64,000 bases of DNA, taken from positions 528,508-592,507 of the forward strand of contig JAQTUV010000002.1 in NCBI GenBank assembly GCA_028707175.1, given 5' to 3'. Both the position numbers and the translations under genes were made by a program. The notes under the pieces are model-generated. The model saw only the letters and a list, made by a program, of their open reading frames with translations. It ran no database searches and had not been told where the DNA came from. Origin of the DNA: Sideroxydans sp. Its GTDB lineage: Bacteria > Pseudomonadota > Gammaproteobacteria > Burkholderiales > Gallionellaceae. Positions 45,118 to 48,212 of this stretch are shown here, in pieces (the first letter of the stretch is position 1; each line of letters starts with the position of its first letter).

Positions 45118-45152
45118 ATTTCAGTCGCTTGACTTAATCAAGCGACTGAAAT
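45118..45152. repeat. 35-bp palindrome, copy 1 of 2
   Basis: ATTTCAGTCGCTTGA-CTTAA-TCAAGCGACTGAAAT, perfect 15-bp arms; identical to 48178..48212. Confidence 0.95.
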
Positions 45153-45622
45153 ATCTTGTGGATGCCTTGCGGGATGACGATGCCGAATTCGGCGAGTAAG
45201 CCGCGTATCTGGTTCGCCTGTGCCGTTCTGGCTTTCACGAATCCCTGTCTGGCCCGGTGCACGGACAAGATCGCTTGTTGCTCGATGTTCTTGATCGGCA
45301 CGAAGCGCATGTTGGGTCGACTGACCGCTTCGCAGATCGCCTCCGCATCGGCCATGTCGTTCTTGTTGGTCTTCACGTAGGGTTTGACGAACTGGGGAGC
45401 CATGAGTTTGACGGTGTGCCCGAACTCACCTAGTTTTCTGGCCCAGTAATGCGCGCTGCCGCACGCTTCCATGCCGATCAGACACGGCTCCAGATTGGCG
45501 AAGTAACTCGACATCTCTGCTCGCTTCAGTTGTTTACGTACGGCCACTTTGCCTCGCTCATCTATGCCGTGAATCTGAAAAACTATTTTTGCCAGATCAA
45601 TGCCAATTGTCGTAATCTTCAT
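45134..45622 (-). pseudogene. Truncated IS110 family (IS1111-like) transposase, N-terminal DEDD domain only
   Basis: MKITTIGIDLAKIVFQIHGID ... GMEACGSAHYWARKL ... NKNDMADAEAICEA; C-terminal Transposase_20 part absent, ORF runs into the palindrome (KIFQSLD). Confidence 0.9.
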
Positions 45623-45717
45623 TTTTGGATGCCCCTTTCTATGTCTAGTGGCCGTAATGCCACCACTACATTGGCACTTTGATGCCTCATTAGGAAGTGG
45701 GCGTCCATTCCATTACG

Positions 45718-45724
45718 TTGGGCC
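45718..45724 (+). other. attC half site (R' box GTTGGGC) at the start of the cassette array
   Basis: TTACGTTGGGC directly upstream of the first cassette ORF; no matching R'' seen on the IS side. Confidence 0.45.
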
Positions 45725-45728
45725 TCTC

Positions 45729-45983
45729 ATGCGTGAGCTTCTAGCTGCCCTATGGGCAAATCAAACCGTCGGTTCGGTCGCTCGCTTTTTAGCTTGGGTG
45801 TTTGTGCTGTGTGGGCTTTTCGCTTTGTCAGCTGGAGTCTATTTCACCGTTACCGAAGGCTTCCCCACAGAGATGTCACTTCAATTTTTTGGCGTCATGG
45901 CAAGCACACTCTACGTTCTCGCTATCTTCCTGTTCGTCGCAATTAAAGGCAAAGCTCCTTCCGGGTGGCTCCCATGGAAATGA
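45729..45983 (+). CDS. Cassette 1: small membrane protein
   Basis: ATG 45729 (MRELLAALWANQ...), two TM segments. Confidence 0.55.
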   Translation: MRELLAALWANQTVGSVARFLAWVFVLCGLFALSAGVYFTVTEGFPTEMSLQFFGVMASTLYVLAIFLFVAIKGKAPSGWLPWK

Positions 45984-46014
45984 AACACCTATCCATGCCA
46001 CTCAATGAATTGAG

Positions 46015-46074
46015 GCCCAACCCATCCATCGAGAGGGACCGCCTATCGGCATCCCCTCATGTCAAACGTTATGC
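46015..46074 (+). other. attC-like recombination site 1
   Basis: R'' GCCCAAC (46015-46021) ... R' GTTATGC (46068-46074) with preceding TCAAAC; internal imperfect complementarity. Confidence 0.75.
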
Positions 46075-46084
46075 CCTTTGAGTC

Positions 46085-46417
46085 ATGAGCGCACTGCCCC
46101 TGTTGCCGATGCACATCGCATCAAAGTCAATCTCGAATGAAGAGGTCGTCCTACCAATGGCAGAGGCTCTCGCAGCTATTGATCTGTTTGAGTCAAAAGA
46201 CGTGCTCATTTTGGGCTGGGAGGGCTGGGTGAAAGATAAGAATGGCCGCGTGGGGCATGGAAATGCACCTCAGGGAACAGTCAGTTTGGAAGACCTCTCG
46301 ATTTCGGAGGCAGCGAAACTCTGCCGTGAAACAATCCCACAAGAGGCTGCCCGCTGGTTCACTGAGAATCCAAAAAACACAGACGACCTGCATTTTTGTA
46401 TCACGGTGCGGGCATAA
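46085..46417 (+). CDS. Cassette 2: hypothetical protein
   Basis: 110 aa ORF between two attC-like sites. Confidence 0.6.
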   Translation: MSALPLLPMHIASKSISNEEVVLPMAEALAAIDLFESKDVLILGWEGWVKDKNGRVGHGNAPQGTVSLEDLSISEAAKLCRETIPQEAARWFTENPKNTDDLHFCITVRA

Positions 46418-46423
46418 CATGGC

Positions 46424-46492
46424 GCTCAACCTCGCTCACTTCGGTCGCTGCGCGATAAAGCCGCGCAGCGCCGGTTTGCTCTACGTTGGGGC
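46424..46492 (+). other. attC-like recombination site 2
   Basis: R'' GCTCAAC (46424-46430) ... hairpin CGCTGCGCG/CGCGCAGCG ... ACGTTGGGG. Confidence 0.7.
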
Positions 46493-46549
46493 GCAAGGTG
46501 ACGGGCTACGCGGGCATGCGAATACCAAAATATTTATACCCGGATGTTA

Positions 46550-46579
46550 TTGATCGCCACATTATTACCCGGGTATAAT
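46550..46579 (+). promoter_or_regulatory. Sigma70-like promoter with embedded palindrome
   Basis: TTGATC-18 bp-TATAAT; spacer contains TACCCGGGTA, with TACCCGG repeated 30 bp upstream. Confidence 0.5.
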
Positions 46580-46595
46580 TGCGCCACTCAATTTA

Positions 46596-47285
46596 TTGGA
46601 GATGATGCAAATGGATGCCTCTGAACAAACATCATGGATTGCCTTTTCAAAAGGCAAGTGCATTGCCTCTGGTGCACCGCGAGGGGTAGTTACTGAAGTC
46701 AAGCGATTCATGGACTCTCAAGCAAAGGATGCTGTGACTATTCTTGATGCTCGAACCAGTGAAACCGTTGAGGTCGATTTCCGCGGTTCCGTATCTACAG
46801 TCCTCAAACGTATCCCTTCTGCGCCAATCCAGAGCCCCGAAGGAAATATTGAGCCACTGCCCCCAGAACGAACCGTCGGCCGACCTAGGCTTGGTGTTAC
46901 GGCGCGCGAGGTCACACTTTTGCCGAGGCATTGGGAGTGGCTTGGTACTCAGCCAGGAGGGGCGTCCACAGTCCTACGCAAGTTGGTTGAGCAAGCACTG
47001 CGTTCGAGCAAGGAATCCGACCGATTGCGCCAAGCTCAAGAGGCTGCCTATCGCTTCATGAATGTAATGGCAGGGGATAGTCCCGGCTTTGAAGAGGCCA
47101 CGCGCGCGCTATTTGCCAACGACATTGAACGACTTCAGCAGCTTGTTTCAACGTGGCCTCGTGACGTAAGAAACCAAGCTCTATTCCTTGCTGGCAAAGC
47201 AATCGCTAAAGATGGCTGCCTTGAGCATGCGCCCCAACCAATCATTCCTCCGCACCTGTCGCGGCAAGCCGCACTAGGCCAGTGA
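46596..47285 (+). CDS. Cassette 3: DUF2239 family protein
   Basis: GRPRLGVTAREVTLLPRHWEWLGTQPGGASTVLRKLVEQA; stop codon lies inside attC 3; start may be an internal Met. Confidence 0.8.
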   Translation: MEMMQMDASEQTSWIAFSKGKCIASGAPRGVVTEVKRFMDSQAKDAVTILDARTSETVEVDFRGSVSTVLKRIPSAPIQSPEGNIEPLPPERTVGRPRLGVTAREVTLLPRHWEWLGTQPGGASTVLRKLVEQALRSSKESDRLRQAQEAAYRFMNVMAGDSPGFEEATRALFANDIERLQQLVSTWPRDVRNQALFLAGKAIAKDGCLEHAPQPIIPPHLSRQAALGQ

Positions 47286-47300
47286 ATTCAAACGTTAGGC
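47231..47300 (+). other. attC-like recombination site 3
   Basis: GCCCCAAC ... GCGGCAAGCCGC hairpin ... AAACGTTAGGC. Confidence 0.65.
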
Positions 47301-47345
47301 TTCTTGCCCACTGAATATCGACATTGCCAAAGAGAGAGTCACAAC

Positions 47346-47543
47346 ATGCCATACATAAACATCCAAATCACCAAAGGGGCCACAAGAGAGCAGAAGGCTC
47401 AATTGGTTAAGGACGTAACCGATTCACTTGTGCGCGTGCTGGGCAAAAAACCTGAGCACACGCATGTCGTTATTCAGGAAATTAATGAGGAAGACTGGGG
47501 ATTCTCTGGTCTGCTTACGGACGAATGGAAAAAGCTCAAGTAG
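47346..47543 (+). CDS. Cassette 4: 4-oxalocrotonate tautomerase family protein
   Basis: MPYINIQITKGATREQKAQLVKDVTDSLVRVLGKKPEHTHVVIQEI; Pro after initiator Met. Confidence 0.85.
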   Translation: MPYINIQITKGATREQKAQLVKDVTDSLVRVLGKKPEHTHVVIQEINEEDWGFSGLLTDEWKKLK

Positions 47544-47565
47544 CTGTCTTCCACCCACCTACAAA

Positions 47566-47634
47566 GCCTAACCTAATGTTCGAGTGGGACTGCCGCGAAG
47601 CAACACGCACCAGCTACTCAATTTAACATTGGGC
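47566..47634 (+). other. attC-like recombination site 4
   Basis: R'' GCCTAAC (47566-47572), GTTCGAGTGGGAC ... CTACTCAATTTAAC, ATTGGGC. Confidence 0.7.
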
Positions 47635-47688
47635 ATCTCAGTAGCGATGACACTTTACACATCAATATCTGCATAAAGGAGAACAGCA

Positions 47689-48048
47689 ATGATAACCAAG
47701 GAGTGGGCACAGCATTTTGCAATCGATTGGGTGGACTCTTGGAACACGCACGACCTTGATCGAGTTCTATCTCACTACACTGACGACTTCGAGATGAGTA
47801 GTCCGTTCATTGTCGCTTTTTCCGGCGAAGCTTCTGGAACATTGAAGGGGAAAGCTCAGGTTGGGGCGTATTGGCGTGCGGCTTTACAACGCATCCCTGA
47901 TTTGCACTTTGAGCTAATCCAAGTATTTGTTTGCGTGAATAGCATCACCATCTACTACAAGGCCGTTTTAGGTAAGCTAGCAACCGAAGTGTTCTTTTTC
48001 AATCCAGATGGAAAAGCATTTAAAGCTCTGGCCCATTATGACAATTAG
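47689..48048 (+). CDS. Cassette 5: SnoaL-like/NTF2-fold protein
   Basis: WVDSWNTHDLDRVLSHYTDDFEMSSPF ... AYWRAALQRIPDLHFEL. Confidence 0.8.
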   Translation: MITKEWAQHFAIDWVDSWNTHDLDRVLSHYTDDFEMSSPFIVAFSGEASGTLKGKAQVGAYWRAALQRIPDLHFELIQVFVCVNSITIYYKAVLGKLATEVFFFNPDGKAFKALAHYDN

Positions 48049-48078
48049 TGTCTGTGAGTTGGTGTCCGCCCCATCATT

Positions 48079-48150
48079 CCACCGTGTGCGGGAAAACTGC
48101 ATGCACGGTTTGATGAGGGAGGGCAGGCGAGAGCCTGTTCTCTACTCTAC
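48079..48150 (+). other. Group II intron remnant (domain V/VI-like)
   Basis: ACCGTGTGCGGGAAAACTGCATGCACGGTT stem-loop, TGATGAGGGAGGG, CAGGC-GAGA-GCCTG hairpin, TTCTCTACTCTAC end. Confidence 0.65.
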
Positions 48151-48177
48151 CTATTTTAATAAAAATCAACCTAATCC

Positions 48178-48212
48178 ATTTCAGTCGCTTGACTTAATCA
48201 AGCGACTGAAAT
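48178..48212. repeat. 35-bp palindrome, copy 2 of 2
   Basis: Identical to 45118..45152. Confidence 0.95.

Follow-up and report, generated by a model that had tools for sequence, protein, structure and literature searches.

A candidate TetR operator and promoter of an RND efflux operon, duplicated around an integron cassette fragment in a Sideroxydans genome

Autoregulated tetR–RND efflux operons, such as those of the AcrR/AcrAB, MtrR and EefR type, carry a palindromic operator that overlaps their promoter. Mobile elements associated with integron cassettes have also been described. Group IIC introns insert beside stem-loops and attC sites and were proposed to join attC sites to genes, and those of the IIC-attC kind are normally oriented opposite to the cassettes (PMC7923331), while in the IS1111-attC group (ISKpn4, ISPst6) the element end abuts the attC core (PMC11187229).

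The locus described here lies in a 64,000-nucleotide stretch of Sideroxydans sp. DNA (the window), in which an island between a lysR-type regulator and a tetR gene is bracketed by two identical 35-bp palindromes. Judging from sequence comparison, the palindrome is most probably (about 0.83) an operator overlapping the promoter of the tetR–MFP–RND efflux operon, duplicated around an integron cassette fragment. The repeats and the genes on both sides of the island are the following:

44168–45097, plus strand: lysR-type regulator of 309 aa, left neighbour of the island (Pfam LysR_substrate and HTH_1; orthologs in 28 of 34 genus genomes)
45098–45158, plus strand: left copy of the duplicated candidate operator/promoter segment (repeat search, flank similarity)
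45118–45152, plus strand: left palindrome, putative tetR-type operator, identical to the single empty-site copy of relatives G153 and G133
45129–45157, plus strand, rightwards into the cassettes: predicted left-copy promoter, TTGACT, 17 nt, TATCTT (pattern scan; conserved in 30 tetR orthologs)
48158–48218, plus strand: right copy of the duplicated candidate operator/promoter segment (repeat search)
48178–48212, plus strand: right palindrome, putative operator of the tetR–MFP–RND operon
48189–48217: predicted right-copy promoter, TTGACT, 17 nt, TAACTT
48247–48965, plus strand: tetR, frameshifted, one base missing near 48586–48590 with respect to 239-aa orthologs
49000–49998, plus strand: RND periplasmic adaptor (Pfam, NCBIfam)
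49995–53075, plus strand: AcrB-type RND permease (Pfam, NCBIfam)

Both palindromes (ATTTCAGTCGCTTGACTTAATCAAGCGACTGAAAT) consist of perfect 15-bp arms around a 5-nt loop and are spaced by 3,060 bp; the left one begins 20 bp past the lysR stop, and the right one ends 34 bp before the GTG start of tetR. The first-pass annotation had described their identity, arms, positions and distances in these same terms, and it was also right that the last codons of the IS110 transposase fragment (FQSLD) are encoded by the left palindrome; the right one likewise closes an antisense ORF. No matching pair was obtained in 100 shuffles (0 matches), and none is expected by chance. Because the palindrome and its reverse complement are almost alike (3 mismatches, all in the loop), the direct orientation was judged from the loop and the flanks. 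Two points go beyond that annotation, namely that the palindrome overlaps a promoter and that the repeat extends beyond the palindrome itself: the repeat search delimits a direct repeat of 61 nt (45098–45158 and 48158–48218) with 89% identity. The whole 2.89-Mb, 99.9% complete genome holds exactly two copies, with no further ones when up to 3 mismatches are allowed, and on this count a repeated palindromic element (REP/MITE) was ruled out. A phage or plasmid att site was ruled out as well, since no match to the palindrome was found in viral contigs (IMG/VR).

Empty sites were searched for in the 33 other genomes of the genus. Three Sideroxydans-like relatives (G131, G133 and G153) show one palindrome each, immediately flanked by the lysR ortholog on one side and the tetR ortholog on the other, and no island; a fourth (G150) is organised likewise, except that the outermost two bases of its palindrome are changed. 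Since these empty sites hold one copy, the palindrome is older than the island, which bears out the earlier proposal of a single ancestral palindrome that became duplicated upon arrival of the island; an empty-site relative devoid of the palindrome, or many genomic copies unrelated to islands, were looked for as contrary signs and neither was seen, the copies in this genome being two only. A wider search, covering 158 genomes of the family with at most 3 mismatches, found the motif in 29; the 28 besides the window's genome have exactly one copy each, and comparison with the tetR coordinates places all 28 within ~110 bp upstream of a tetR ortholog. Looked at from the gene side, the motif precedes 30 of the 32 tetR orthologs examined, a recognisable site being missing at those of G125 and G127, the latter of which has an N run there. 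The upstream DNA of the family tetR orthologs shows that lysR is absent next door at most motif-bearing loci. Sampling 399 genomes of the order gave no occurrence outside the family, the 3 positives all belonging to it.

Alignment of 30 sites shows which parts of the palindrome are kept. Almost no variation is seen in the outer inverted repeat TTCAGTC...GACTGAA or in the block TTGACTTAA, the -35 hexamer TTGACT is nearly invariant, and 17 nt past it a TAnnnT box has its T, A and T in 30/30 sites. This spacing and conservation are the signature of a -35/-10 promoter; the pattern scan finds the corresponding sigma-70 promoter overlapping the palindrome at 45129–45157. The inner arm positions 10–12 and 23–26 vary without compensatory changes, leaving in some orthologs a stem of no more than 9/15 pairs, and the loop CTTAA and the adjoining TAnnnT are conserved. 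Hence, the constraint acts on double-stranded DNA (protein binding, promoter) and not on an RNA hairpin.

These data bear directly on the suggestion of the first-pass annotation that the palindrome may be an intrinsic lysR terminator which was copied along with the island. Its place just past the lysR stop and the perfect hairpin formed by the single strand (z -11) would fit such a role, but there is no T-run after the stem, no terminator-like site was found in 44900–48700, and the palindrome accompanies tetR even where lysR is absent. Together with the conserved -35/-10 pair, and a stem that breaks where loop and -10 box are kept, this makes a terminator very improbable.

Concerning the protein that would act at this site, the tetR product shows the Pfam domains TetR_N and CecR_C and scores below every NCBIfam equivalog cut-off, and an outer-membrane efflux protein is encoded further downstream of the RND permease. 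We infer that TetR itself binds the palindrome: a TetR dimer would recognise TTCAGTC...GACTGAA, spanning the -35 box and abutting the -10 box, and would thus repress its own operon. On this reading the order was ancestrally lysR–operator–tetR, and 61 bp or more, covering the lysR 3' flank, the operator and the -10 box, became duplicated in the window's lineage, with the 3-kb cassette-array fragment between the copies.

The extent of the duplication can be followed outside the palindrome. The 20-nt left flank of the right copy matches that of the left copy at 14/20 positions (shuffle P ~0.004), a score reached at only two other positions of the 64-kb window besides the flank itself, and beyond the palindrome the left copy still has the ancestral ATATCTTG; taken together, they indicate that the duplicated segment includes, as a minimum, the stretch from the end of lysR through the -10 box. 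Of the 26 positions outside the palindrome the copies disagree at 7 (~27%), and of the 35 inside at none; the probability of this is estimated at ~2e-5 if both copies drift freely and at ~0.006 if one does. It is likely that both are under selection, or that conversion has occurred between the two. As for the -10 box, the left copy has TATCTT, thereby retaining the ancestral promoter, and the right one has changed to TAACTT, still a TAnnnT. Candidate routes for the duplication are a tandem duplication followed by insertion, a group II intron-linked event and recombination between alleles.

The last of these can also be put as a rival explanation, in which the two operators are two alleles: recombination would have brought in the right one together with tetR and the RND genes of another lineage, and the island with them. 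Identity to the relatives is 84–89% left of the palindrome and mostly 73–82% right of it, and the flanks of the two copies differ by ~30%. In the trees, the window's MFP–RND genes group with G131 (100/100) and its lysR with G153 (84/87, moderate support), as this alternative would have it. However, tetR, which lies beside the right copy, also groups with G153 (92/94), its grouping with G131 being rejected (p-AU 0.013). With lysR and tetR on the side of G153 and MFP–RND on that of G131, the phylogenetic break falls downstream of tetR and not at the palindrome or the island. In addition, the left flank of the right copy is closer to the left copy than to the four close relatives, which it matches at 5–10 of 20 positions. 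An origin of the two operators as alleles thus appears improbable. The rpoB tree (76/90) is too weakly supported to serve as a species reference.

The identity drop had raised the suspicion that the tetR–RND side was wholly foreign, which the tetR tree rules out, only MFP–RND grouping with G131. Apart from the palindromes, the adaptor and permease genes (49000–53075) show an apparent allele exchange with its breakpoint after tetR. It should also be noted that tetR bears a 1-base deletion relative to all close relatives, and that both halves are well conserved despite the frameshift (89% and 82% aa identity to G153). The frameshift is either a very recent pseudogene or a sequencing error; repression may be lost in the window's strain if the deletion is real, and the gene is intact if it is an assembly error.

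The island itself is composed as follows:

45162–45714, minus strand: truncated IS1111/IS110-type element, 5' end and N-terminal half of a DEDD transposase (NF033542, Pfam DEDD_Tnp_IS110, DNA homology limits)
45717–46074, plus strand: cassette 1, with attC core GTTGGGC, a small ORF ending at 45983 and attC at 46015–46074 (core sites, ORF)
46085–46490, plus strand: cassette 2, with an ORF at 46085–46417 that has no Pfam match and an attC-like segment at 46422–46487
46614–47300, plus strand: cassette 3, DUF2239 protein (Pfam DUF2239, 226.9 bits), with attC end AACGTTAGGC (attC-like match on contig C8)
47294–47634, plus strand: cassette 4, tautomerase at 47346–47543 and attC at 47566–47634 (part of the copy at C10:51206–51982)
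47689–48084, plus strand: cassette 5, SnoaL-like protein at 47689–48048 (Pfam SnoaL_2), with attC cut after ...CATTCCACCG (by comparison with the C10 copy)
48077–48150, plus strand: 3' end of a group II intron, domains V–VI, ~70 nt (Rfam RF00029)

The cassette ORFs are all on the plus strand with attC-like segments between them. As a strict regular expression failed to pick up the majority of attC sites, among them those of contig C8, the assignment relies on BLAST matches and core motifs; the sites at 46015–46074 and 47566–47634 were found by the RYYYAAC/GTTRRRY pattern, their core letters showing small variations, with no intI nearby. Compared with shuffles, the bottom-strand folds have z values of -2.2 and -2.1 for two of the four attC sites, the remaining two being at ~0 and +1.1. 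An intI of its own is present in the genome at C8:330086–331027 (493 bits against a cut-off of 265), the sole match above the cut-off, and attC-like segments related to those of the island occur near it and on other contigs: the one of cassette 2 has 97% identity to a segment on contig C17 and 83% to one located ~1.8 kb from intI. In turn, the tautomerase and SnoaL cassettes recur at C10:51206–51982 with 97% identity. The host's own intI, the related attC-like segments and the C10 copy point to a host-type cassette array fragment, without integrase.

Three side observations concern these cassettes. The C10 copy sits in an apparent second cassette cluster. Contig C8, at 288800–331030, carries a chromosomal integron, comprising the full integron integrase with attC-like segments adjoining it and again ~40 kb away. 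Within the island, a promoter-like TTGATC-18-TATAAT (46550–46579) lies just upstream of the DUF2239 ORF, inside a long imperfect inverted repeat (46534–46592).

At both ends of the cassettes there are relics of mobile elements. The transposase half (45162–45622) matches NF033542 with 178 bits (cut-off 140) over positions 1–165 of 343 and stops after ~150 aa, and the homology of the element to plasmid relatives ends at 45714, 2 bp before the attC core at 45717. On the opposite side, the RF00029 match falls short of the gathering score of 40, with 32.9 bits (E 0.0013); the intron tail is fused to the cut attC of the SnoaL cassette, with CCG common to both, and its 3' end borders the duplicated flank. 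No donor copies of the intron or the IS were found elsewhere in the genome, both being single-copy relics, and the island has no recombinase ORF other than the truncated transposase.

The first-pass annotation had alternatively proposed that the palindromes are the end or the target of a mobile element. In a fuller form of this rival they would be ends or site-specific recombination targets of an island that inserts, and excises as a circle. That identical direct copies bracket the island and that the empty site has one copy would be expected in such a case. Nevertheless, the island lacks recombinase genes apart from the truncated transposase, and the divergence of the flanks, along with the internal truncation of IS and intron, indicates an old, inert fragment. 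The motif occurs once per family genome, always at tetR, with two copies at this locus only, and is absent from viral contigs; a mobile island is hence hardly likely at all.

The palindrome may have been a group II intron target, and a capture route in line with the operator reading can be drawn up accordingly: insertion of a group IIC intron next to the operator stem-loop would have been followed by recombination, or a deletion, involving the intron and an attC, and this would have joined the cassettes to the site. The insertion preferences and the proposed joining role of such introns agree with it, as does the position of the intron 3' end at the edge of the duplicated flank and fused to the cut attC. 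Yet intron insertion alone does not duplicate 61 bp, and the remaining ~70 nt, domains V–VI in the same orientation as the cassettes, do not establish the class and do not correspond to a group IIC-attC intron, for which the opposite orientation is the norm. The route is therefore doubtful.

Returning to the duplicated operator, the right copy would still drive tetR and the efflux genes; it is taken as their driver because the left one is now 3 kb off. The left copy, which retains the ancestral promoter, faces cassettes of the same orientation and may drive them, in which case the cassettes may have joined the TetR regulon. We tentatively suggest, as a less than likely extension, that integrase-less cassettes came under a duplicated inducible efflux operator and answer to the TetR of the neighbouring pump, the left operator being kept by selection.

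The locus illustrates that two perfect direct repeats framing an island may stem from the duplication of a host regulatory site and need not be att sites, a pitfall for island finders. Throughout a family of Sideroxydans-like bacteria the motif also offers a conserved candidate operator of an RND pump under TetR control and, if the left copy is active, the locus would exemplify the recruitment of a regulated host promoter by cassettes that lie outside an integron.

In comparison with known systems, the window's tetR adjoins an MFP–RND operon and has a predicted palindromic operator over the promoter, by analogy with the AcrR/AcrAB, MtrR and EefR type, but its operator is duplicated and has a sequence seen, among the genomes searched, only in this family. 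The several attC cassettes in one orientation, with no adjacent intI and the integrase elsewhere in the genome, resemble a CALIN, from which the island differs in being bracketed by host operator copies and in having truncated mobile elements at both ends. The DEDD IS110/IS1111 transposase, with the element end at the attC core, is as in the IS1111-attC elements of the ISKpn4 and ISPst6 group, although here it is cut after ~150 aa and the other element end is missing. Similarly, the domain V–VI segment lies by an attC and near a stem-loop as group IIC and IIC-attC introns do, whereas it keeps the 3' ~70 nt only and is oriented as the cassettes. On these sequence comparisons each part belongs to a known kind, and the combination is an unusual one, unique to the window's genome among the genomes searched.
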